From Aquella oligotrophica (GTDB taxonomy: Bacteria > Pseudomonadota > Gammaproteobacteria > Burkholderiales > UBA11063), in NCBI RefSeq assembly GCF_002892535.1, contig NZ_CP024847.1, forward strand, positions 124,001 to 188,000: 64,000 nucleotides of DNA, in the 5' to 3' direction. How positions within the stretch are numbered: position 1 is the stretch's first letter; every line of letters begins with the position of its first letter. The translations under genes and the position numbers were made by a program. The notes below the pieces were generated by a model that saw only the letters and a list, made by a program, of their open reading frames with translations, searched no databases and was not told where the DNA came from. Below, in pieces: positions 24,598 to 46,468 of the stretch.

Positions 24598-26875
<2,278 letters not shown>

Positions 26876-26893
26876 AATTATTCCTTACAAAAC

Positions 26894-28432
26894 TTATGCA
26901 AATGTTGCTTTAAATTCGGTTAATGCTTTAATTAATGTCTGCTCATCATCTTTTGATAAATCACCAGTAGATTCAAGCTTAGTAAGCATTTCCGCACAAT
27001 TAGCTTTAGCATAAGCAAGAAACCCTGATTCAAAAGCCAAAGCTTTATCCACAGCCACATTTTCATAATAACCATTATTAATAGCATAAAGCGTTAAAGC
27101 CATTTCTGATACTTTTAATGGTGAAAACTGTTTTTGTTTCATTAATTCGGTTACAATTTGTCCATGGCGTAGCTGTTTTCTAGTTGCATCATCAAGATCA
27201 GATGCAAATTGGGCAAAAGCTGCCAACTCACGGTACTGAGCTAATGCTAAACGAATACCACCACCTTGTTTTTTGATAACTTTAGTCTGAGCAGCACCAC
27301 CTACACGAGAAACAGAAATACCAGGGTTCATCGCAGGACGAATACCAGAATTAAATAAATCCGTTTCCAAGAAAATTTGTCCATCAGTAATTGAAATCAC
27401 ATTTGTTGGTACAAAGGCAGATACATCACCAGCCTGAGTTTCAATAATTGGTAGAGCCGTTAATGATCCAGTTTTACCTTTTACTTCACCCTTAGTAAAT
27501 TGCTCAACATAATGAGCATTTACACGAGCAGCACGCTCAAGTAGACGTGAATGCAAATAGAATACATCACCAGGATAAGCTTCACGACCAGGAGGACGAC
27601 GTAATAACAACGAAATCTGACGATAAGCTACAGCCTGTTTTGATAAATCATCATATACAATCAAGGCATCTTCACCGCGATCACGGAAGTATTCACCCAT
27701 AGTACAGCCAGAATAAGGAGCAAGAAACTGTAATGCAGCTGACTCTGAAGCTGAAGCTGATACAATAATCGTGTGATCTAAAGCACCATGCTCTTCAAGT
27801 TTTCTTACAACATTTGCAATCGAAGAGGCTTTTTGACCAACTGCAACATAAATACAAATTACTCCAGTTCCTTTCTGGTTAATAATTGTATCAAGCGCTA
27901 CAGCCGTTTTACCTGTTTGACGATCACCAATGATTAACTCACGTTGACCACGACCAACTGGTACCATTGAATCGATAGCTTTCAAACCCGTTTGTAATGG
28001 TTGGCTAACTGATTGACGCGCAATTACCCCCGGTGCTACTTTTTCTACCGGAGAAGTTAATTGTGAGTTGATAACACCTTTACCATCTATTGGACGACCT
28101 AATGCATCAACAACACGACCAATTAACTCTCTTCCCACTGGAACTTCAAGAATTTTTCCAGTGCAAGAGACCTCATCGCCTTCTTTAATATGTTCGTAAT
28201 CACCCAGAACAACGGCTCCTACAGAGTCCCTTTCTAAGTTCATTGCCATACCGTAGACATTTCCAGGGAATAAAATCATCTCTCCCTGCATAACTTCCGA
28301 TAAACCATAGATACGTACAATACCATCGGTTACTGATACAACTGTTCCTTTGCTGCGATAATCGCTGCCGCTTTGTGTACCATCAATCTTTGATTTTATA
28401 ATATCACTAATTTCAGAAGGATTTAATTGCAT
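26894..28432 (-). CDS. atpA: ATP synthase F1 subunit alpha
   Basis: 512 residues, the normal length. Walker [14 protein letters not shown], the alpha-chain signature [14 protein letters not shown], and the N-terminal [16 protein letters not shown] crown segment are all present. Alpha binds nucleotides without catalysing and alternates with beta in the F1 head. It is separated from atpH by 12 bases. Confidence 0.97.
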
Positions 28433-28444
28433 GAATCACTCCTA

Positions 28445-28978
28445 TTATTTTGTAAGTTGAGCAGCCAAATTAGTCAGCCTGCCTTTAACTGAACCATCGA
28501 TAACTTTATCATCAACAGTAATTTTTATGCCTGCTATAAGGTCAGCATTAACTTTAACCTGAGCAGTAATTTTTTTGCCAAATTTATCTGAAAGCAGCTT
28601 CTCAAATTCATCTTTCTGAGTTTGACTAATATCGTATGCCGACTCAATAATTGCATCAGCACATTTTTGATCTTCAAGTACCAATTCACGAAAGATGTTA
28701 TATATATCTGATAAAATAATTAATCGATTATTTTCAGACAATAAATTTAGAAGACTAACAACTTCAGGTGTAGCATCATTTTTAAGAATAGTTTCAATTA
28801 GTTTTAATTGTTCTTTACCATCAATTTTTGGATTATTAATTAATAAAGAAAAACCTTCTGCTTCAACTATTTCTTTAAGATCAGCCAGCACTTTAAGCCA
28901 TTTATTTTCACTTTTCTCCTGCTTAGCAAGATTAAAAAGTGCTTGTGCATATGGTCTGGCTACATTTGCATGCAACAT
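28445..28978 (-). CDS. atpH: ATP synthase F1 subunit delta
   Basis: 177 residues. The N-terminal helical bundle begins ANVARPYAQALFNLA, and the C-terminal segment IAGIKITVDDKVIDGSVKGRLTNLA is the delta signature. It joins the peripheral b stalk to the top of F1. It begins one base after atpF ends. Confidence 0.95.
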   Translation of the reverse strand: MLHANVARPYAQALFNLAKQEKSENKWLKVLADLKEIVEAEGFSLLINNPKIDGKEQLKLIETILKNDATPEVVSLLNLLSENNRLIILSDIYNIFRELVLEDQKCADAIIESAYDISQTQKDEFEKLLSDKFGKKITAQVKVNADLIAGIKITVDDKVIDGSVKGRLTNLAAQLTK

Positions 28979-28979
28979 A

Positions 28980-29453
28980 TTATTGCAACTCCGCTCTTAC
29001 CTGAGCAAGAATCTGCTCATGTCTTGATTTATCAATTTCAGCACGCAACACCTGCTCTGCTCCTTTTATGACCAAATCAGAAACCTGAAGACGGAGATCT
29101 TCTTTCATTCTGGCAAATTCATGGTCTATCTGAGCTTTTGCTTCAGCAATAATTTTATCTGCTTCAATGTGCGCCGACTCTTTTGCTGTTTCAACAATCT
29201 GATTTGCTCTCTTTTCAGAGTTAGCAATTATCTCTCCAGCCCTCTGCTGAACCTTTTTCAACTCATCAGCTACTCTAGATTCTGCATCAAGAAGCTCTTG
29301 CTTCCCTTTTTCAGCAGCTGCAAGCCCATCAGCTATCCGTTTAGCCCTTTCTTCAAGCATGCCATTTAATGGCGGCCAAACAAATTTCATTGTGAACCAT
29401 ATCAGGACAGCAAATGTTATTGCTTGACCCAACAACGTTGCATTAATATCCAC
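28980..29453 (-). CDS. atpF: ATP synthase Fo subunit b
   Basis: 157 residues. A single N-terminal membrane helix ([18 protein letters not shown]) is followed by a long charged coiled coil (about 30-140), the peripheral stalk of the proton-translocating ATP synthase. The start codon is GTG, with GGAGA ahead. There is only one b gene, so the stalk is a homodimer. Confidence 0.95.
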
Positions 29454-29483
29454 ACTTGTCTCCTTTAAAGATTAAGTAGTGTA

Positions 29484-29780
<297 letters not shown>

Positions 29781-29823
29781 CTAAAAAGTTAAAGAAATTA
29801 CAATAAAATAAACACAGATAAAA

Positions 29824-31010
<1,187 letters not shown>

Positions 31011-32468: not shown

Positions 32469-33050
32469 TTATTTTATCTTAATACCCAAATTTTTAAATT
32501 TTCTATATAAATGAGCTCGATCAACACCCGAAACTTCAGCTATTTTAGTTATATTTCCTTTTTGTTTATTCATATGATAAAGAAAATATCTTCGCTCAAG
32601 TGTCTCTTTAATATTTTTTAATTGATTATTTAAATCAAGTGTAATTATTTCAGAGATATCCTCCAAAACACCTTCACTATTAGTTCTTTCTTTAAGAATA
32701 TGTTTATCAACTAATGGCAATAGCTTGCTTAATGAAAGTGGCTTTTCAAGAAAATCCCTAGCTCCTATTCGTATTGCTTCAAGAGCACTAGTTATCGAAG
32801 CATGCCCGGACATCATGATTACAGGTGTAACAATCCCATTTGACAAGAACCGTTTAAATAAAGAAACCCCATCCATATCAGGTAGCCATACATCCATTAG
32901 AATCAGATCAAATCTGTATTCTTTAACCATTTTATCTGCTTCAAGGGCATTTTCTGCTAATTTTACCAAATATCCTTCATCTTCAAGACATTCACGTAAT
33001 AATTCACGTATCCCAAGTTCGTCATCAACAATTAATATTTGTTTTTCCAT
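32469..33050 (-). CDS. ntrX: NtrX-type response regulator lacking the AAA+ domain
   Basis: 193 residues from the ATG at 33050. The receiver domain occupies about 1-120, with the acidic pair Asp9/Asp10, phospho-acceptor Asp53 (LILMDVWLPDMDG) and the conserved Lys in FLEKPLS. After a short linker comes a Fis-type helix-turn-helix (GNITKIAEVSGVDRAHLYRK). The sigma-54-interacting AAA+ domain of typical NtrX (about 450 residues in all) is absent, and the junction is clean with no remnant. As I recall, the same reduction has been described for Neisseria NtrX. It should act as a sigma-70-dependent regulator or repressor. It follows ntrY by 27 bases. Confidence 0.85.
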   Translation of the reverse strand: MEKQILIVDDELGIRELLRECLEDEGYLVKLAENALEADKMVKEYRFDLILMDVWLPDMDGVSLFKRFLSNGIVTPVIMMSGHASITSALEAIRIGARDFLEKPLSLSKLLPLVDKHILKERTNSEGVLEDISEIITLDLNNQLKNIKETLERRYFLYHMNKQKGNITKIAEVSGVDRAHLYRKFKNLGIKIK

Positions 33051-33077
33051 TAAAAACAACCCTTAAAACAATATAGT

Positions 33078-36433: not shown

Positions 36434-36449
36434 TGTTTCATATGAAACA
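36434..36449. other. parS-like centromere site (left)
   Basis: TGTTTCATATGAAACA, a perfect 16-bp palindrome. The general bacterial parS consensus is TGTTTCACGTGAAACA, so only the two central bases differ. It shares a longer left flank (TTAATG) with the second site at 40228. It fills the gap between the fpr terminator and the rsmB start. Confidence 0.65.
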
Positions 36450-36476
36450 AAAAAAAGATACCTAAGCGGTATCTTT
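36449..36476 (-). terminator. Intrinsic terminator of fpr
   Basis: Stem AAAGATACC/GGTATCTTT (36454-36462 with 36468-36476) has a 5-base loop and a minus-strand T run. It overlaps the fpr stop codon, and its T run abuts the parS-like site. Confidence 0.85.
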
Positions 36477-37251
36477 ACCAATAATTTTCTACAGCCATAT
36501 TACCAGGATTTCCTCGTCTGGATATAGTTAATCCTCTTTCAGCAAGTAACCTTCGTGTATCATCAACCATTTGTGGGTTACCACAAATCATAACTCTACT
36601 ATTTTCAACAGTAAAAGGAATACCTACGAAATCTTCTAATTCTTTATTAACAATAAGATCAGTAATTCTACCATATAAATCAGCTTCATTTTTTTCTCTA
36701 GTAGTAATCTTTACATACTTTAATTTATCTTTTACCAACTCACCGTAATATTCATGTGTGAAAAATTCATTAATCGTTTCTTGATAAGTTAACTCTTCAG
36801 ATAATCGAGTACAGTGTACTAAGATAACTTTATCGTATTGCTCCCAAACACTAAAGTCATACATTATAGATATAAATGGGGCTAACCCAGTACCAGTTGA
36901 TAAAAACCATAGATCTTTACCATTTTCAAACCTATCTGTTGTTAATAATCCATAATTCGTTTTATCAATATAAATATCATCATTTATTTTAATGTTTTTT
37001 AATCTTTGTGTAAATTCACCATCTGGAACTACAATAGAATAAAATTCGAGTTCTTCATCATAATCAGCTGAAACTATAGAGTAAGGTCTCCATACAATAG
37101 TTTCGTCTTCTTTTTTTACTCCTAATCTGGCAAATTGTCCAGGAATGAATTTAAAAGATTCATCTCGAGTAATTTTGAAGCTAAATAGATGATCTGTCCA
37201 TTGTTTAATATATGTTACTTTTTGTATTGTATATTTACCTTCTTTAGCCAT
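36475..37251 (-). CDS. fpr: Ferredoxin/flavodoxin-NADP+ reductase
   Basis: 258 residues, the length of bacterial subclass I/II enzymes. The FAD-binding RPYSIVSA motif lies near residue 55. The NADP-binding motifs LSTGTGLAPFISI (near 115) and VMICGNPQMVDDTRRLL (near 220) and the C-terminal GNPGNMAVENYW follow. It exchanges electrons between NADPH and ferredoxin or flavodoxin for iron-sulfur assembly and oxidative stress defence. It is the first leftward gene beside the candidate origin region and has its own terminator. Confidence 0.9.
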   Translation of the reverse strand: MAKEGKYTIQKVTYIKQWTDHLFSFKITRDESFKFIPGQFARLGVKKEDETIVWRPYSIVSADYDEELEFYSIVVPDGEFTQRLKNIKINDDIYIDKTNYGLLTTDRFENGKDLWFLSTGTGLAPFISIMYDFSVWEQYDKVILVHCTRLSEELTYQETINEFFTHEYYGELVKDKLKYVKITTREKNEADLYGRITDLIVNKELEDFVGIPFTVENSRVMICGNPQMVDDTRRLLAERGLTISRRGNPGNMAVENYW

Positions 37252-37571
37252 AATGATTCCATTTAATAATAAGAGGTTATTTTATCATTAGTTAAGAGCT
37301 TCTAATATTAAAGATTTAATGTTATAATATATTAACTAATTTTATTAATTATATACTTTATTATTATTAATATTAGTCTATTTCTATGTTAATAAGCTAT
37401 GTTTATATAAATAAATCAGATTATTAAGTATAAAAATAACATGATGATAATTCATGTATTAAGAAGTATATAAATGTGCATAAAAAAATATAAATAAATT
37501 AAATTGTGAATAACTTTAAATTATCAACATAGATTTTAAATTTTATTAACAATCAACTGTGAATAACTTTA
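37252..37571. other. Candidate replication origin: AT-rich region with DnaA-box cluster
   Basis: This 320-bp gap between divergent fpr and waaC is extremely AT-rich and has no gene. Three sequences match the DnaA box TTATNCACA exactly on the minus strand: 37475-37483 (TTATGCACA), 37505-37513 and 37558-37566 (both TTATTCACA). The last two lie within a repeated TGTGAATAACTTTAA, 53 bp apart. Three one-mismatch boxes lie at 37387-37395, 37521-37529 and 37543-37551. Stretches of A/T from 37321 to 37500 could be the unwinding element. Two parS-like sites flank the region at about 0.8 and 2.7 kb. dnaA, dnaN and gyrB are not nearby, so the origin reading is an inference. Confidence 0.6.
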
Positions 37572-38543
37572 ATGAAGCAACAAATAAATATTCTTATCAT
37601 TAGACTTTCTTCAATTGGTGATATATTTCATACATTAACTGTATTGCCTGATATAAAGAAAAAATTTCCAGATAGTAATATTGATTGGTGTGTTGATAAA
37701 TCATTTGAAAAAATAGTTAAATTATCACCTTTAGTTGATAATGTATTATCGATTCCTTTAAGAAAATGGAAAAAAAATAAGTTAACTTGGTTTTTTAAAT
37801 TATTAGATTATAAAAAAAGACTAAGTGATAAAAAATATGATTATATAATTGATACACAAGGGCTAATTAAATCTGCATTTATTACTAAATTTTTATTTAA
37901 TGGTAAGTTATATGGGCTTGATAAAAAATCTGCACGTGAGCCTTTATCAAGTGTATTTTATGATTATAAATATAACGTTAATCAAAATAATATAGCGGTT
38001 ATTCGCTTAAGAGGTTTGATAGCTAAAATTTTTGATCTTGATATAGATTACAATCAGATTGAGCTTCCTATTATTTTCAATGATTGTGGAATTAAATTAT
38101 CCGCAAATAGTATTTTATTTTTGCATGGTACTTCTAAAGAGTCCAAAAAATGGGATATAAATAATTGGAAAGTACTAACTGAATACATTTTAGAAAACTC
38201 GGATAATGATATTTATTTGACTTTTAGTAATAGTGAAGAAGAATTATTTGCTAATTCGCTTAGATCATTAGTAAACGATAACCGTGTTAAAATAGTTTAT
38301 AAAATGGAGTTTGCTTTGTTAGCAGATTTAATTAACAAAGTTAAACTTATTATTGGTGTTGATACTGGGTTCACTCATTTGGCAAATCTTTTAGGCAAGC
38401 CAACCTTAGCAATATATCAAGATAGCGATCCATCTTATGTAGGGATATTTAAATATAATAATTCATCTAATTTTGGTGGAAATAAACTAAAAGTATCTGC
38501 CAGTGAAATAATCAATTATATACAAAGTAATAAATTATTATAA
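37572..38543 (+). CDS. waaC: Lipopolysaccharide heptosyltransferase I
   Basis: 323 residues, GT-B fold of family GT9. The N-terminus KQQINILIIRLSSIGDIFHTL is typical of WaaC; IDWCVDKSFEKIV, the central TQGLIKSAF and the C-terminal IIGVDTGFTHLANLLGKPTLAIY nucleotide-sugar motif support it. It adds the first heptose to Kdo2-lipid A at the inner membrane. The start ATG follows a DnaA-box-like TGTGAATAACTTT with no ribosome site, so translation may be weak or leaderless. Grouping with waaA supports the assignment. Confidence 0.85.
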   Translation: MKQQINILIIRLSSIGDIFHTLTVLPDIKKKFPDSNIDWCVDKSFEKIVKLSPLVDNVLSIPLRKWKKNKLTWFFKLLDYKKRLSDKKYDYIIDTQGLIKSAFITKFLFNGKLYGLDKKSAREPLSSVFYDYKYNVNQNNIAVIRLRGLIAKIFDLDIDYNQIELPIIFNDCGIKLSANSILFLHGTSKESKKWDINNWKVLTEYILENSDNDIYLTFSNSEEELFANSLRSLVNDNRVKIVYKMEFALLADLINKVKLIIGVDTGFTHLANLLGKPTLAIYQDSDPSYVGIFKYNNSSNFGGNKLKVSASEIINYIQSNKLL

Positions 38544-40227: not shown

Positions 40228-40243
40228 TGTTTCATGTGAAACA
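40228..40243. other. parS-like centromere site (right)
   Basis: TGTTTCATGTGAAACA differs from the general parS consensus by a single base. The palindrome continues outward (TTAA on both sides, 40224-40247), and the left flank TTAATG is the same as at the site at 36434. It lies just before the ribosome site of the SDR gene and 740 bp before a ParA-family gene. Confidence 0.7.
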
Positions 40244-40938: not shown

Positions 40939-40982
40939 TAAAGCAGAAAGCTTAATGTTTTTATCAATAGAGATTGGGAAAA

Positions 40983-41630
40983 ATGAGTGCAAAAATAATT
41001 ATTGTTACTAATCAAAAAGGTGGTTGTGGTAAAACAACCTTGGCTATGAATGTGGCTGGTGTATTAGGTTTAAACAACAAAACGTTACTGATTGATGGTG
41101 ATCCACAAGGTAGTGCTAGTAGATGGGCAGCAAGTAGTAGTGATGAAAAGCCTTTTCCGGCAGCAGTTATGAGTCTTGCTGCTGTAAATGATAAGGTAAA
41201 TCGTGAGATAAAAAAATATATTGATGATTATGAATATATAGTAGTAGATTGTCCTCCTGCGATTGATAATAAATTTACTTCTTCAGCTTTATTAATTGCT
41301 GATTTGGCATTAGTTCCAATTGTTCCTAGCCCAACTGATCTTTGGGCTGCGATTGGTATTCAAAATTTAATTTCAAATGTGAGTGAAATTAATGAAAAAT
41401 TACAAGCTAGGCTTGTAGCAAATATGTGCCAGACAAATGCTAGTATTTCAAAAGAAGCGTTAAGCTTGATTGAAGAATTTGATTTTCCTAAAATGACTAC
41501 TGATATTTATCAACGTACTGCCTATCGCCAGTCTGCTGCTTTGGGTGGTACAGTTTTTGATCTGGATAATCAGAAAGCTCGCGAAGAAATAAAGGCTCTT
41601 GTTAGTGAAATTATTGATGCATTAAACTAA
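40983..41630 (+). CDS. Solitary ParA/MinD-family partition ATPase
   Basis: 215 residues from the ATG at 40983 (GGGAAAA upstream). Deviant Walker A NQKGGCGKTTLA with the signature lysine is near residue 11, switch I LLIDGDPQGSASRW near 38, and Walker B YIVVDCPPAID near 85. It is shorter than chromosomal Soj/ParA (about 255) and has no N-terminal helix-turn-helix, so it belongs with the orphan ParA proteins that place cargo such as chemoreceptor clusters, carboxysomes or plasmids over the nucleoid. No parB follows; the next gene encodes a basic-tailed, phasin-like protein. That pairing is the main clue to its cargo. Confidence 0.85.
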   Translation: MSAKIIIVTNQKGGCGKTTLAMNVAGVLGLNNKTLLIDGDPQGSASRWAASSSDEKPFPAAVMSLAAVNDKVNREIKKYIDDYEYIVVDCPPAIDNKFTSSALLIADLALVPIVPSPTDLWAAIGIQNLISNVSEINEKLQARLVANMCQTNASISKEALSLIEEFDFPKMTTDIYQRTAYRQSAALGGTVFDLDNQKAREEIKALVSEIIDALN

Positions 41631-41693
41631 TTACATTTAACTGCTTAATTATTATATAATCTAGTGTAACATTATAATATTTTGGAGAAAATG

Positions 41694-42263
41694 ATGGCTA
41701 CAAAAAGAAAAATTGGAGCTTCACTGCGCCAATCAGTTACAGCTGAAAAACAGAAAGTTGCTGATACTAAGCAACCTAGCGAAAAGTCAGCAAAGCCAAA
41801 TCCTGTAAAAGCAGCTGTTGTGAATAAACCAGTTACTGTAACTGAAGCAAAACCAGCGCCTAAGAAACCAAGTGTACCTAAAAAAGTTAATCAGGTATCA
41901 AATGCAGCTAAACCTTCAATTGCTACTAAAACAGTGGAGAAGGAATTACCAAAGGCGACTGCTACTCCAGCAAGTAAATTTCCTGAATTTAAAATTAATC
42001 AAGATTTATTAAATTCAGTTCCTAAATTAAATGAAGTTCTTGATCAGCTAACTTCAATGAGTAATAAGCTTGCAAACCTCTTCTTAGAAAATATGCATTC
42101 GACAAATTCTCATTTAAATGAATACTTATTGCAGCTTGGTTCGTTAAAAGATCCGGCAAGCCTCTATGAGTTAAATATGAAGTTAATGAATAAACTAAAA
42201 GCTAGCCAACAGGAAATTTTTAGTAAAAATCTTGAGTTTTTCTCTTTTTATAAGAAGAAATAG
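41694..42263 (+). CDS. Basic-tailed, phasin-like protein, probable ParA partner
   Basis: 189 residues from the ATG at 41694, placed 6 bases after GGAG; ATG 41691 and TTG 41682 are alternatives. Residues about 1-95 are Lys/Ala/Pro/Val-rich, strongly basic and disordered, like the DNA-binding tails of PhaF/PhaM granule proteins. Residues about 98-189 form an amphipathic helical region (KLANLFLENMHSTNSHLNEY, then LQLGSLKDPASLYELNMK), whose L..N......L...KDP..LYEL pattern resembles polyhydroxyalkanoate phasins. The phasin link is by eye and could be wrong. The 63-bp spacing from ParA on one strand suggests they work together, though TATAAT sequences in the gap could give it a separate promoter. 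Confidence 0.6.
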   Translation: MATKRKIGASLRQSVTAEKQKVADTKQPSEKSAKPNPVKAAVVNKPVTVTEAKPAPKKPSVPKKVNQVSNAAKPSIATKTVEKELPKATATPASKFPEFKINQDLLNSVPKLNEVLDQLTSMSNKLANLFLENMHSTNSHLNEYLLQLGSLKDPASLYELNMKLMNKLKASQQEIFSKNLEFFSFYKKK

Positions 42264-42282: not shown

Positions 42283-42327
42283 AAATCTGCTACTTTAAGT
42301 TTTTTAAGAAGTGGCAGATTTATTTTT
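42283..42327 (+). terminator. Terminator after the ParA/phasin-like pair
   Basis: A 13-bp stem with one G-T pair (42283-42295 with 42309-42321) is followed by ATTTTT. Its right arm encodes the last codons of the convergent PLP-enzyme gene. Confidence 0.75.
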
Positions 42328-43194
42328 AAGGTAATTATATCTTTGTTGCATTGAATAGTTGCCAGTTAGCCCGCCACAATGAAGGTATAGAATACTTCCT
42401 TTAATAGTCTCCAAATTTTCCAGTAAAATTTTCCAGCCAACTGGATCATAAATTAAATCAAATTCAATTTGACTAACTTTATTTATTTCTCGGATTGTAG
42501 TCAACAATTCTTCATATGGTGTAGCAAAACGATATTGTTTATTATCAATTACTAATGGAAGCTTTGAGTTATCGTAATTAATTGAACTCATTTGCTCTAT
42601 AAGATAATCACGACTGCCTACACAATTTGTTGTAATTACTTGATGCTTATCAAGGTGTTTTTGTAAAAAAAAGGCAGTAGTCCCAGTTCCAGATGGGAGG
42701 AAAATATTTATACTTTCCAAATAATTTAATACTGCCCATTTGTTTATTTCTTCTGCTAGCTGTTTTATACCGTATTCAGCCTCTATTTGAAGCGCTCCTT
42801 GACAAATTAACAATTGATTTGAGGTAGTGCATAGGCTACTAGTAAATTGATTGTATTCTTTATCTAATTCTATAAGCTGCATACCATTTTTAAGGCTCAA
42901 TTCTAGATTACTCTGTTTGCTATCTTTTACAGTTTTGGATAAAGAGCGCGTATAATAAATAAATTGCCAATTTTTTAGTTGTGCCAGACAGGAAAGAGAA
43001 TACATAAGATTTGACTGATTACCGCCATAGCTTATAATTGTATTTGTCGCTGGAAAGTCGTTCTCTAGGTAATAAGCTAGCTTTCTCGCTTTATTCCCAT
43101 TAAAATTTTTATCCAATAAATCATCACGTTTTACAAAAAAAGTATGATTTCCATATTTGAATTGGGATATTGGAGAGTTATTTAGAATCATCAT
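42304..43194 (-). CDS. PLP-dependent ACC deaminase/D-cysteine desulfhydrase-family enzyme
   Basis: 296 residues. Fold type II PLP enzyme: KRDDLLDKNFNGNKARKL carries the PLP lysine (GNKxRKL), ISYGGNQSNLMYSL contacts the cofactor, and FLPSGTGTTAFFL is the phosphate-binding loop. The family includes 1-aminocyclopropane-1-carboxylate deaminase and D-cysteine desulfhydrase; the true substrate is unclear. It is the last gene of a tightly packed operon: its ATG overlaps the stop of the RibD-C gene (TAATG). An ATG three bases later could also start it. Confidence 0.8.
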   Translation of the reverse strand: MMILNNSPISQFKYGNHTFFVKRDDLLDKNFNGNKARKLAYYLENDFPATNTIISYGGNQSNLMYSLSCLAQLKNWQFIYYTRSLSKTVKDSKQSNLELSLKNGMQLIELDKEYNQFTSSLCTTSNQLLICQGALQIEAEYGIKQLAEEINKWAVLNYLESINIFLPSGTGTTAFFLQKHLDKHQVITTNCVGSRDYLIEQMSSINYDNSKLPLVIDNKQYRFATPYEELLTTIREINKVSQIEFDLIYDPVGWKILLENLETIKGSILYLHCGGLTGNYSMQQRYNYLKNKSATS

Positions 43195-44057
43195 TAATAA
43201 TTGATTTTATAACGTGTATAAAGAAAATTATTGGCAATATTATGAAGTGTCAGAATTGTATAGTGTGGATGGCTGCGGCTGCTAAAAGATTGATTTTGCA
43301 TGCCAAGGCTATTTATTGAGCCACCAATATAAACGCTTGAAGTATTTAACCACGCTTCATCAAGTAATTTATCTTCTTGTAGCTTATGATGTAAAAAAGG
43401 TGATTCATTTAGCATGATTTTTATGTCAAGTGCAAATAATTTATCAAAAAGTATTCTAAAATTAAAAGAGTCATTATCATAAATAATCTGTTTGATTTTA
43501 TTTTCATTCAAATCATGAATTGATAAAACTGGAATATCATAGGATTTAAGAGGCTTTCTTGCTGAATAAATTAGCAGAGGAATCTCCGGATTTTTATAAA
43601 TTATTTCATCATAAATATTAAAATTATCGATATCCCGAGTTACTAAAATATGTAAAAGTTCGCTGGGTTTGCCTAACTGTTTTCTAAATTTAAGCAGATT
43701 TTCATTATCAATATTTGCGATAAAGTTATTATTTTCATTTGTTAGGCTATTTGTCCCAATTATTACTGCATCACTTATGCTTCTACCGAGTAATAAATTC
43801 CAATAATCTGCATAACGTTCTTCTTGTGTTGCGCTTGAGTTTTTTGCAGCAATCGCGTAGCCAGTTTTCATATCAGGGTAACAGAGCTTACCATCTACAG
43901 AAAGAGCAAAACAGCTAAAAATAAATGATTTGCTTTTTATTTCTGGTAATTTCAAATAAGTACCAAGAGTTTCGTTTAAATATTCCGATTTAATTATTTG
44001 ATAATTTTCAGAATTTAATACATTATTTTCAATTAATAGCTTAAATTTCAACTTCAT
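43194..44057 (-). CDS. RibD C-terminal/dihydrofolate-reductase-like protein
   Basis: 287 residues. The middle part fits the RibD_C fold: FSCFALSVDGKLCYP (substrate strand), DYWNLLLGRSISDAVIIGTNSL (nucleotide-binding turn), and the late EAWLNTSSVYIGGS. No deaminase domain is present, so it is not a complete RibD. Stand-alone members reduce various pyrimidine- or pterin-like compounds with NADPH; the substrate here is unknown. It overlaps the permease gene upstream by 17 bases and the PLP enzyme downstream by one, which implies translational coupling. Confidence 0.7.
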   Translation of the reverse strand: MKLKFKLLIENNVLNSENYQIIKSEYLNETLGTYLKLPEIKSKSFIFSCFALSVDGKLCYPDMKTGYAIAAKNSSATQEERYADYWNLLLGRSISDAVIIGTNSLTNENNNFIANIDNENLLKFRKQLGKPSELLHILVTRDIDNFNIYDEIIYKNPEIPLLIYSARKPLKSYDIPVLSIHDLNENKIKQIIYDNDSFNFRILFDKLFALDIKIMLNESPFLHHKLQEDKLLDEAWLNTSSVYIGGSINSLGMQNQSFSSRSHPHYTILTLHNIANNFLYTRYKINY

Positions 44058-45522
44058 TTTTAGTTATTCTTTCAGCTAAAAATCCTGTTATTATGCAGAT
44101 AATGGCACAAATTAAATAGGTCAAATTTATATGGCTCAGAAATTGAATTTTTGGTGTCTGTGAATGAATCAAACCAAATCCGCTTAGGATTATTAAAAGA
44201 ATAAATCCGTAAGCTGCCGGAATCCATTTTCTATACATTATAAAATAAAAAATACTCGTTAAAAGGAGGCTAAATAAAATCGAACCCTTAGCTAATATGA
44301 ATAGTCCATTTACACCTCTTAATTGCATAAAATTAGTGATGTGGTTTTCTGTTGATAATAATTCAAGTTTATTATATATAAGTTCAGTAAGGATTGGTAT
44401 GATTCCAATGATCAACAGTATATATTCATTTTTCTTTAATGCTTCAAAGCTCACAGCTGTTGTGGTAATTCCAATAACTATCAGTACTGGTAGGGTTACC
44501 CATTCTGGGATCAGGCTAATAAGTAAAATACTAAGTCCGGTTGAACCCAGTATTAGATAAATTATTCCATTATATAAAGAAAACCTGTAGTCTGCACCTT
44601 GTTGTTTCCATGAATAATGTCCAAAAAATAAAGCCATAGCAAAAGGATTGCCCATTATACTTGAAAAACCACTAATTAAACCACTTGTTAAAATTGCAGA
44701 ATATGGATTGAAGTGGTCATTACTAAGTTTTGATTCTTCAAGAATCTGGATTGCACTAACAGCATCAATTATTGCAAAAGCAATTATTAGTGGTAGATAT
44801 GAATAACAATGGTCTAATACTTCTGAAGATACGTCAAGCCAGATAAATTGTGGAATATAAATTTGATAGCTATGCAAATCTGGATTAACCCATTGAAACT
44901 CTTTACTCACAAAAGCAATTATAGTTCCTAATAAGACACCTAGCATTATAATTGGAATATTAACTTTTATCCTTGCTATGCTGATGGCAAGAATAACTAA
45001 TAATGGCAATAAACCAGATAATGGATGTTCAAAAAGAGTTGGCAGGTTATTAATTGCAAGCCAAGTAAAGGCAGATCCAGCTAGTCCGCTAAAAAGAGCA
45101 GGAGAAGGGATGTATTTTAAGAGCTTGATTAATAATATTCCAACAATTATAAAAATAATAGCATTAATTAAATTTGCCAATAAAGCAACCTTGTAAGCAA
45201 GTAGTGGATTACCTGTTTTAGTAGCTATTGGAAGCATGATAGCAAAGAGCCAGACAAAAACACAGCTTGCCTGTAAACCGCTGGGTAATGCTGTTACACT
45301 AGTATTTGTTTTTCTAGCGAGAGTTTTTGCTTGCCAAAAGTATGCAAAATTTAATAAAAAAAGGCTAAAGCATAGTCCAGGAAGAATATTATGGTTAATA
45401 ATATCTTGTGGTAAATGAATAATACCAGTTAAAACAGCAATACTTACCGCTATTTTAGCAAAGCTATCAAAAAATACTCCGATGGTTGCGTTTAAATTTG
45501 CGCTTTGGTTTATTGCAAGCAT
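44041..45522 (-). CDS. NCS2/xanthine-uracil-type permease
   Basis: 493 residues with 12-14 hydrophobic segments. The N-terminal half has FWQAKTLARKTNTSVTALPSGLQ, resembling the polar signature of nucleobase or ion symporters of the AzgA/NCS2 fold, and helix-breaking segments LFSGLAGSAFTWLA and SGLISGFSSIMGNPFAMALF. A purine, pyrimidine or oxyanion cargo is plausible but cannot be decided here. It begins one base after the stop of the ion-channel gene and overlaps the RibD-C gene, so the four genes are a single operon. Confidence 0.6.
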   Translation of the reverse strand: MLAINQSANLNATIGVFFDSFAKIAVSIAVLTGIIHLPQDIINHNILPGLCFSLFLLNFAYFWQAKTLARKTNTSVTALPSGLQASCVFVWLFAIMLPIATKTGNPLLAYKVALLANLINAIIFIIVGILLIKLLKYIPSPALFSGLAGSAFTWLAINNLPTLFEHPLSGLLPLLVILAISIARIKVNIPIIMLGVLLGTIIAFVSKEFQWVNPDLHSYQIYIPQFIWLDVSSEVLDHCYSYLPLIIAFAIIDAVSAIQILEESKLSNDHFNPYSAILTSGLISGFSSIMGNPFAMALFFGHYSWKQQGADYRFSLYNGIIYLILGSTGLSILLISLIPEWVTLPVLIVIGITTTAVSFEALKKNEYILLIIGIIPILTELIYNKLELLSTENHITNFMQLRGVNGLFILAKGSILFSLLLTSIFYFIMYRKWIPAAYGFILLIILSGFGLIHSQTPKIQFLSHINLTYLICAIICIITGFLAERITKNEVEI

Positions 45523-45523
45523 T

Positions 45524-46468
45524 TCAGGAAATAACCGCTATATAAGTATTAACAACAATGTAACTAATGTAGCAGATAAATGAAATAATTCCAATTGTGT
45601 AGGATAGCTTATGTTTTTGTTGCGGTGGTATGTTTAATTGTTCGGTAAGTATTGATATACAAATTGATAAAAAAAGAACAATAAAGGTTGCTGCTTGAAT
45701 TGAGTCTGCTAAAGTAAAGTCAGTAGTTAGTGGTAATTTCTGATCAATGGTATATTTATTTCCAATAAATGAAAATATACCACCAGCAAAAATAGTTGCT
45801 CTTGCCGGGAAAGGGAAAGTATTCATTAGATAGAGAATATGTGCTAAAAACCCTGCCATAAAAAAGCCAATAAAATAACTGATAAATACCCGCATACCTT
45901 CGCGCTTTATTTCTATCGTCATAGTAATTCTATCAAACAAACCCTTAGGTGCATCAGCATTACCAAAGTTGGTATCATAGGTAGTTGTACTTTTTTTAAC
46001 CGACATATTTAATATTTTCCAGCCGGGTAATTCAAATTCAGAATGTAATCGAGAATCTTTAAAGTCTGGATCAAAGACTATATGATCCGTATCCTCGAAG
46101 TCTTCCAACCTGACCTGCAAATATTGATGCCCAAAAGGAAAATACTTCAGGTTCCAGTCATAGTGTATTTTTGCGTAGTAATGTACAAAGGTATAATAAT
46201 CACCATTGGCGGTTTTCCCTGTTCCACCAAATTTATGTGTATAAGTACGGGCATTTACTATTTCAATACTTGTATCTGGTTTATAGTTTTTATCTTTAGT
46301 TCTCCACCATGCATAAAAGCTAATTCCAAAAGAGTTATTGAATTGATCAAGCTCATAAATGCTCATGGGATAAACGCCAAAAGTAACTGTTTCAGGTATT
46401 TCTGGTTTAGCTTCAGCCAAAATGGGAAATAAAAATAGAACAAAAATTACTAATTTTAATAGTTTCAT
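45524..46468 (-). CDS. Predicted pentameric ligand-gated ion channel (Cys-loop receptor family)
   Basis: 314 residues. A signal peptide (about 1-20) precedes a beta-rich extracellular domain of roughly 180 residues, containing HYDWNLKYFPFGHQYLQVRL, the prokaryotic form of the Cys-loop (aromatic-Pro-Phe-x-x-Gln) without cysteines. Four membrane helices follow: VFISYFIGFFMAGFLAHILY, a polar pore-like helix ATIFAGGIFSFIGNKYTI ending near KLP, SIQAATFIVLFLSICISIL, and SYTIGIISFICYISYIVVN. The order and spacing match GLIC/ELIC-type channels, with short intracellular loops. It would be a homopentamer in the inner membrane gated by a periplasmic ligand. It leads an operon with a permease and two enzymes; no earlier gene shares the transcript. 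Confidence 0.7.
   Translation of the reverse strand: MKLLKLVIFVLFLFPILAEAKPEIPETVTFGVYPMSIYELDQFNNSFGISFYAWWRTKDKNYKPDTSIEIVNARTYTHKFGGTGKTANGDYYTFVHYYAKIHYDWNLKYFPFGHQYLQVRLEDFEDTDHIVFDPDFKDSRLHSEFELPGWKILNMSVKKSTTTYDTNFGNADAPKGLFDRITMTIEIKREGMRVFISYFIGFFMAGFLAHILYLMNTFPFPARATIFAGGIFSFIGNKYTIDQKLPLTTDFTLADSIQAATFIVLFLSICISILTEQLNIPPQQKHKLSYTIGIISFICYISYIVVNTYIAVIS

Follow-up and report, generated by a model that had tools for sequence, protein, structure and literature searches.

A probable chromosomal replication origin of Aquella oligotrophica lying apart from dnaA

Where does a chromosome begin to replicate when a cluster of DnaA boxes lies tens of kilobases from dnaA itself? The question is raised by a 320-bp gap in the chromosome of Aquella oligotrophica, a bacterium of tap water. 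The gap occupies positions 37252..37571 (genome 161252-161571) of the window, by which we mean the whole 64,000-nucleotide stretch that was analysed, bases 124001-188000 of the single 2,820,660-bp contig; the genome itself is labelled G000 hereafter. A preliminary description of this DNA had proposed that the gap is oriC or an ectopic origin. The portion of the A. oligotrophica paper that was available gives a chromosome of 2,820,660 bp and 36.43% G+C for strain P08, and no statement on the replication origin was found in that portion (PMC6612550). Here we present evidence, drawn from comparison of sequences, that the gap is the chromosomal oriC of A. oligotrophica, a reading to which we give a probability of roughly 0.95. 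GC skew, parS-like sites, synteny and the arrangement of the boxes all agree on this place, and of the two possibilities proposed the chromosome's own oriC is favoured.

The gap is 85% A+T and, as had been described, separates diverging genes: at its left edge a leftward gene for an fpr-like ferredoxin-NADP reductase (36475..37251, minus strand; NF008178, E 8e-58, under the curated cut-off), and at its right edge the rightward waaC, encoding LPS heptosyltransferase I (37572..38543, plus strand; TIGR02193, above the cut-off). The broader claim of two diverging gene series stands at the gap and fails further out, gene directions being mixed left of ~16 kb and the rightward run stopping at 42.3 kb. 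ATP synthase genes, six of the scanned ORFs, lie to the left (24598..31010, minus strand). Three exact copies of TTATNCACA, all on the minus strand, begin at 37475, 37505 and 37558, and the three one-mismatch versions at 37387, 37521 and 37543 are likewise real; the 15-bp direct repeat TGTGAATAACTTTAA, said to hold two of the boxes, is present at 37505 and 37558. The six DnaA boxes are box 1 (TTATTAACA, 37387..37395, minus strand), box 2 (TTATGCACA, 37475..37483, minus), box 3 (TTATTCACA, 37505..37513, minus), box 4 (TTATCAACA, 37521..37529, plus), box 5 (TTATTAACA, 37543..37551, plus) and box 6 (TTATTCACA, 37558..37566, minus). They define a lattice with offsets 0/88/118/134/156/171 and strands -, -, -, +, +, -, with 171 bp between the first and last starts. 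Exact TTATCCACA is absent from the gap, each of the six boxes being 1-2 mismatches off; as all are non-consensus, they are probably of lower affinity.

This cluster exceeds chance by resampling, by a scan of 1.08 Mb of the genome and by a lattice control. Isolated exact boxes are unremarkable, as the preliminary description had cautioned: seven copies of TTATNCACA lie in the window outside the gap, and the window total of 10, against 4.97 expected, was reached in 3 of 100 shuffles. The whole genome has 163 TTATNCACA sites (87 for the pattern read backwards). The case was said to rest on clustering, and the clustering is real: the gap has four boxes within one mismatch of TTATCCACA where 0.09 would be expected, which none of 300 resampled sequences matched. 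Among the 56 TTATNCACA sites in the 1.08 Mb sampled, a triple within 100 bp occurs in the gap only, and the next-tightest triple spans 4.3 kb and has two boxes in common with it. By a looser count at up to one mismatch, a DARS-like site at 531 kb in the same sample equals the density of the gap (4 per 200 bp). The lattice scores 46 out of 54 in the gap and 32 at the next best place in that sample (both strands, no shifts). If each site may shift by +-1 bp, the window's runners-up are a minus-strand place that again overlaps the gap (35.75) and a plus-strand one (34.25); shuffled 1.5-kb flanks score up to 35.25.

A putative unwinding element adjoins the boxes. No other 200 bp of the window are as A+T-rich as those starting at 37301 (87.5%), and the stretch left of box 1 (37301..37386) is, from its A+T richness, the likely DNA-unwinding element. 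It includes a DnaA-trio-like run of six NAN triplets, TAT TAT TAT TAA TAT TAG (37359..37376, plus strand), 10 bp from box 1; the minus strand likewise has a seven-triplet run with an 8-bp spacer to box 1, and in several relatives TTA runs fall at this place of the alignment. The search rule for the basal unwinding system, as given in PMC8287927, is a box with up to 2 mismatches, a spacer no longer than 16 bp and three or more NAN triplets. Box 1 (2 mismatches to TTATCCACA), its 10-bp spacer and the six triplets fall within these published limits, an agreement that is weak in such A+T-rich DNA, and the trio runs of the gap occupy both strands.

GC skew was sampled in 51 stretches of 20 kb, some adjoining, and in the window divided in four, giving 55 pieces and 38% of the chromosome. 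Along the arm from the gap to 1.49 Mb, skew is positive in 26 of 27 sampled pieces (the exception, 188-208 kb, is at -0.008); along the other arm it is negative in 25 of 27 (exceptions 104-124 kb, +0.002, and 1.54-1.56 Mb, +0.012). The one further piece contains the gap itself and is outside both arm counts. The sign flips at the gap (161 kb) and again from the piece at 1.47 Mb to that at 1.50 Mb; a linear, interpolated cumulative walk over this 38% sample has its maximum at 1.50 Mb. Begun at base 1, the linear walk has its minimum at the record end, 2.82 Mb, because base 1 lies mid-arm; only the circular walk begun at 1.49 Mb places the minimum of the 38% sample at 161.5 kb, and the maximum of that walk, being its chosen starting place, carries no weight. 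Over the contiguous 104-228 kb the exact cumulative minimum is at 161,127, 125 bp left of the gap. At the opposite end, an E. coli-type dif 22-mer has 0 matches at up to 3 mismatches in the genome and a 28-mer scan of the sampled stretches gave 7 mismatches at best; as dif was not found, the terminus is placed by skew only. KOPS were too scarce in the first 24 sampled pieces for their counts to be of use.

Could the skew switch merely follow the divergence of genes at the gap, with the boxes an accident of AT-rich DNA? Genes do diverge there, and the preliminary description had already argued, from hand counts of C16/G8 at 27001-27060 and C3/G11 at 43201-43260, that the bias seems to follow position beyond gene direction. 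Those counts are exact, and third-position skew upholds the argument: leftward genes average -0.311 left of the gap (28 genes) and +0.051 right of it (14 genes, 95% CI -0.008 to +0.109), and rightward genes -0.049 on the left (6 genes) and +0.242 on the right (11 genes), so that genes of one direction differ by the side of the gap on which they lie. In eight relatives with an fpr/waaC gap, the skew minimum of a 15-20 kb piece falls inside the gap in seven (G002, G005, G007, G009, G014, G018 and G022, of which G002 and G009 are near-identical) and 59 bp outside it in the eighth, G016, although minima in pieces of this size are partly shaped by gene direction. Left out of this count were G004, G010 and G012, small pieces with changed gene order or absent flanks; the minimum lies between waaC and fpr in G004 and near the contig start in G010 and G012. 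With the switch dividing two whole arms of the sample and the box spacing conserved, an explanation by gene direction and AT-rich accident is strongly disfavoured and, in our judgement, scarcely credible.

The dnaA gene begins at 208,268 and has dnaN and gyrB after it; it lies 46.7 kb to the right of the gap, in keeping with the earlier proposal of an origin away from dnaA. That these three genes stand together in order would suit a true origin beside them (208.3 kb), the gap then serving only to bind DnaA, for regulation or titration, between two promoters, and a shallower second skew dip does run through 192-208 kb, adjoining dnaA, in both the contiguous 104-228 kb and the circular walk. However, the cumulative skew is -1548 at 160 kb, below its values of -1279 at 192 kb and -1195 at 208 kb. 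The preliminary description had set its proposal against a skew minimum lying elsewhere, such as beside dnaA; in the 38% sample the minimum is at the gap and not at dnaA. Nor is there a box cluster or lattice in G000 within 1.2 kb upstream of dnaA; a one-mismatch box triple at 205.5 kb was considered as an origin and rejected, as it is inside an 872-aa ORF, and the one rpmH-like protein motif tried was not found in the 4 kb upstream of dnaA. The best parS matches, moreover, flank the gap and not dnaA. We regard an origin beside dnaA as very unlikely.

Two further observations bear little on the choice of the gap over dnaA. The four 16S genes all run in the direction of forks leaving the gap, which is equally true for an origin at dnaA. 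Upstream of dnaA, G000 and the relatives covered (16 of the 19 with a dnaA match) have no more than two boxes (up to one mismatch) in 500 bp and no lattice scoring over 30 (the G004 piece stops within dnaA and lacks an upstream part, and those of G019 and G011 have <1 kb upstream); this absence is weak evidence, because the 20 other-family genomes of the order that were checked, out of 58, likewise have no box clusters upstream of dnaA. We therefore claim neither a dnaA-adjacent origin as the norm of the order nor the separation as a peculiarity of the genus. Among relatives that are MAGs, dnaA and the gap are on different contigs.

The genome was searched for parS with the consensus TGTTTCACGTGAAACA, giving 27 sites at up to 3 mismatches against 10 for the reversed pattern. 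Only four have up to 2 mismatches, and two of these, the best one included, flank the gap. The left one, TGTTTCATATGAAACA (36434..36449, 2 mismatches), lies 0.8 kb from the gap, in the start of rsmB beside the end of fpr, and is the sole perfect palindrome among the genome's three 2-mismatch sites; the right one, TGTTTCATGTGAAACA (40228..40243), lies 2.7 kb from the gap between kdtA and an SDR gene and is the best match in the genome, with 1 mismatch. By comparison, the parS-like site nearest to dnaA at up to 3 mismatches is at genome position 220.8 kb and has 3. In same-genus pieces, TGTTTCAYRTGAAACA occurs three times in G018, twice in G002, G007, G009, G014, G016 and G022 and once in G004, G005 and G010, and was not found in the small piece of G012. 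In the relatives the parS-like sites are placed between fpr and rsmB, at the junction of the two, or just past kdtA, and inside fpr in G005 and G007. The putative parS sites are thus close to the candidate oriC, as expected of a chromosomal parABS region; in this they resemble the systems with origin-proximal parS described in the available parts of PMC7022226 and PMC4091711, with the difference that the genome's one match to the ParB family (PF17762) is far from the origin, at 2.31 Mb.

A ParA-family partition ATPase is encoded 3.4 kb right of the candidate oriC (40974..41630, plus strand; NF041546, above the cut-off). Its presence near the gap would fit a second origin, ectopic or acquired (that of an integrated plasmid, for example), beside a main origin elsewhere. 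However, the genes flanking the gap are housekeeping genes in an order conserved in the genus, no replication-initiator protein was found in the ORFs scanned (27 of the 74 listed for the window), and the skew sample has two arms only. The chromosome's own oriC is favoured because that sample has a single rising and a single falling arm, and a second origin of foreign descent seems to us extremely improbable. Beside the right-hand parS-like site, the ParA-family gene is followed by one with a sub-threshold Phasin_2 match (E 0.018; 40974-42263 for the pair), and both have counterparts in G014 and G022.

The position and architecture of the proposed origin are, by sequence comparison, conserved in relatives. 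At E<=1e-40, fpr is matched in 15 of 23 same-genus genomes, own included, and in 11 of these 15 the lattice scores at least 39: ten times at fpr (G000, G002, G004, G005, G007, G009, G014, G016, G018 and G022) and once upstream of waaC (G010, score 44, where fpr is not adjacent and the fpr side is without lattice). Weak lattices are present in G012 (37 upstream of waaC, 33 at fpr) and in G020 (36.5 at fpr, where the shuffle maximum is 33.75, and none at its waaC). G017 has fpr and no lattice in the 836 bp upstream, and none was seen in the 417 bp of upstream sequence of G008, nor at the waaC locus of G001, which has no fpr match at this threshold. A second fpr in G009 (L217, G009:C120), 76% identical, is without lattice; the G009 assembly may be a mixed bin. 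Gene order around the gap is kept in the genus, with atpB on the same side in G002, G007, G009, G014 and G022.

Within the fpr/waaC gap itself, the lattice recurs with a shift of 0-1 bp per site in G005, G007, G014, G016, G018 and G022, and, if the right edge is moved outwards, also in G002 and G009. The summed score over seven relatives is 301.25, compared with a mean of 228 and a maximum of 272.2 for random six-site lattices of equal length, none of 5,000 of which reaches the true sum, although the seven are not independent tests because they share ancestry. By contrast, exact TTATCCACA occurs in only 10 of the 42 lattice sites of these relatives. The letters ACA at box positions 7-9 are invariant (42/42 sites), which is partly expected because the sites were picked by box similarity. 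The spacing of the array is therefore apparently better preserved than the letters of its boxes.

A second, partial array seems to be present in some relatives. A second-best lattice, scoring 33.25-42, lies 274-300 bp left of the first in G002, G005, G007, G009, G014 and G022; shuffles of those gaps reach at most 33.75 (rounded), a limit to which G014 (33.25) and G022 (35.5) are near. Second-best scores are low in G000 (29.25), G016 (32.75) and G018 (29.5), which therefore show one module. The gap of G000 is also short, 320 bp against 462-795 bp in relatives, and a long alignment gap opens in it. We tentatively suggest, at somewhat less than even odds, that the origin of the genus is a fixed 171-bp six-site array of mostly non-consensus boxes, with spacing kept and letters drifting, to which one species group adds a second partial copy ~275-300 bp to the left, so that there are one or two modules. 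If true, these genomes would form a natural series in which to ask what number of modules an origin requires, and would separate spacing from box affinity.

How does the gap compare with the oriC of E. coli K-12 (NC_000913.3:3925744-3925975)? In E. coli dnaA is 42.0 kb away and in Aquella 46.7 kb from the gap. The exact boxes of E. coli oriC, R1 and R4, are 180 bp apart, similar to the 171 bp from first to last in Aquella, and in both the box adjoining the A+T-rich side is oriented alike relative to it. ATP synthase genes lie near the E. coli origin too. The flanks differ, however (mnmG/mioC in E. coli, fpr/waaC in Aquella), as does the spacing of boxes, the Aquella lattice scoring only 26 of 54 on E. 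coli oriC. Unlike E. coli-type oriC, the Aquella gap has no GATC (Dam/SeqA) sites, and it has no match to the IHF consensus used. The gap would thus work like a DnaA-dependent oriC, apart from dnaA as in E. coli, with an array that the two do not have in common. In the part of PMC6669920 available, the separation of oriC and dnaA in E. coli is treated as a rearrangement from a dnaA-proximal origin.

Boxes of another arrangement were observed at three intergenic places (L240, L110 and L241; genome 286738-286772, minus strand; 531188-531222, plus; 2330693-2330727, plus). These DARS-like motifs have three boxes, +,+,- at 0/+12/+26, which was the best of six spacings tried on the uvrB and mutH neighbourhoods of E. 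coli, with scores of 24 and 22 of 27; DARS1 and DARS2 were placed in those neighbourhoods by position, and the motifs scored are putative DARS cores. At up to 3 mismatches the triple-box motif is present in 19 of 23 genomes of the genus and in 76 of 120 of an order sample (4 of them of the same genus), the reversed-pattern control giving 0 in each. A review, in the part available, reports DARS2 to be conserved in beta- and gammaproteobacteria (PMC5742627), so these motifs are probably known in kind.

An origin beside waaC may be older than the genus of Aquella. In a genome of another family with 63% G+C (L190/L191, G049:C9, ~74.8-75.2 kb), eight boxes (up to one mismatch) lie within 500 bp at and upstream of waaC, with dnaA ~16 kb from this cluster on the same contig. 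The cluster does not share the Aquella lattice, and the skew minimum of a 40-kb piece is ~5 kb from it.

Two neighbouring loci are recorded here in their own right. Right of the candidate origin is a leftward gene block (42304-46468) in which the ORFs 43194-44057 and 44041-45522 have no Pfam or NCBIfam match at the thresholds used, one ORF has weak PLP-enzyme matches only, and 45524-46468 is weakly like ligand-gated ion channels. On the left, 32469-33059 encodes a 196-aa response regulator that matches the receiver part of NtrX, the central domain being unmatched; it is 93-95% identical in G002, G009, G014 and G022, far above the adjoining ntrY, rsmB and cysS.

If the gap is oriC, initiation would proceed as follows. 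DnaA-ATP would bind the six-box array, and a DnaA filament starting at box 1 would grow to the left, enter the A+T-rich stretch and open it. Helicase would be loaded, and two forks would depart in opposite directions and converge near 1.5 Mb. ParB bound to the parS sites on either side would then help to segregate the new origins. The complete genome of A. oligotrophica now has a probable place for its oriC, which would add to the lineages that have oriC separated from dnaA, and its array, conserved with a spacing that appears to outlast the sequences of the boxes, would be useful for testing what is constrained in origins.
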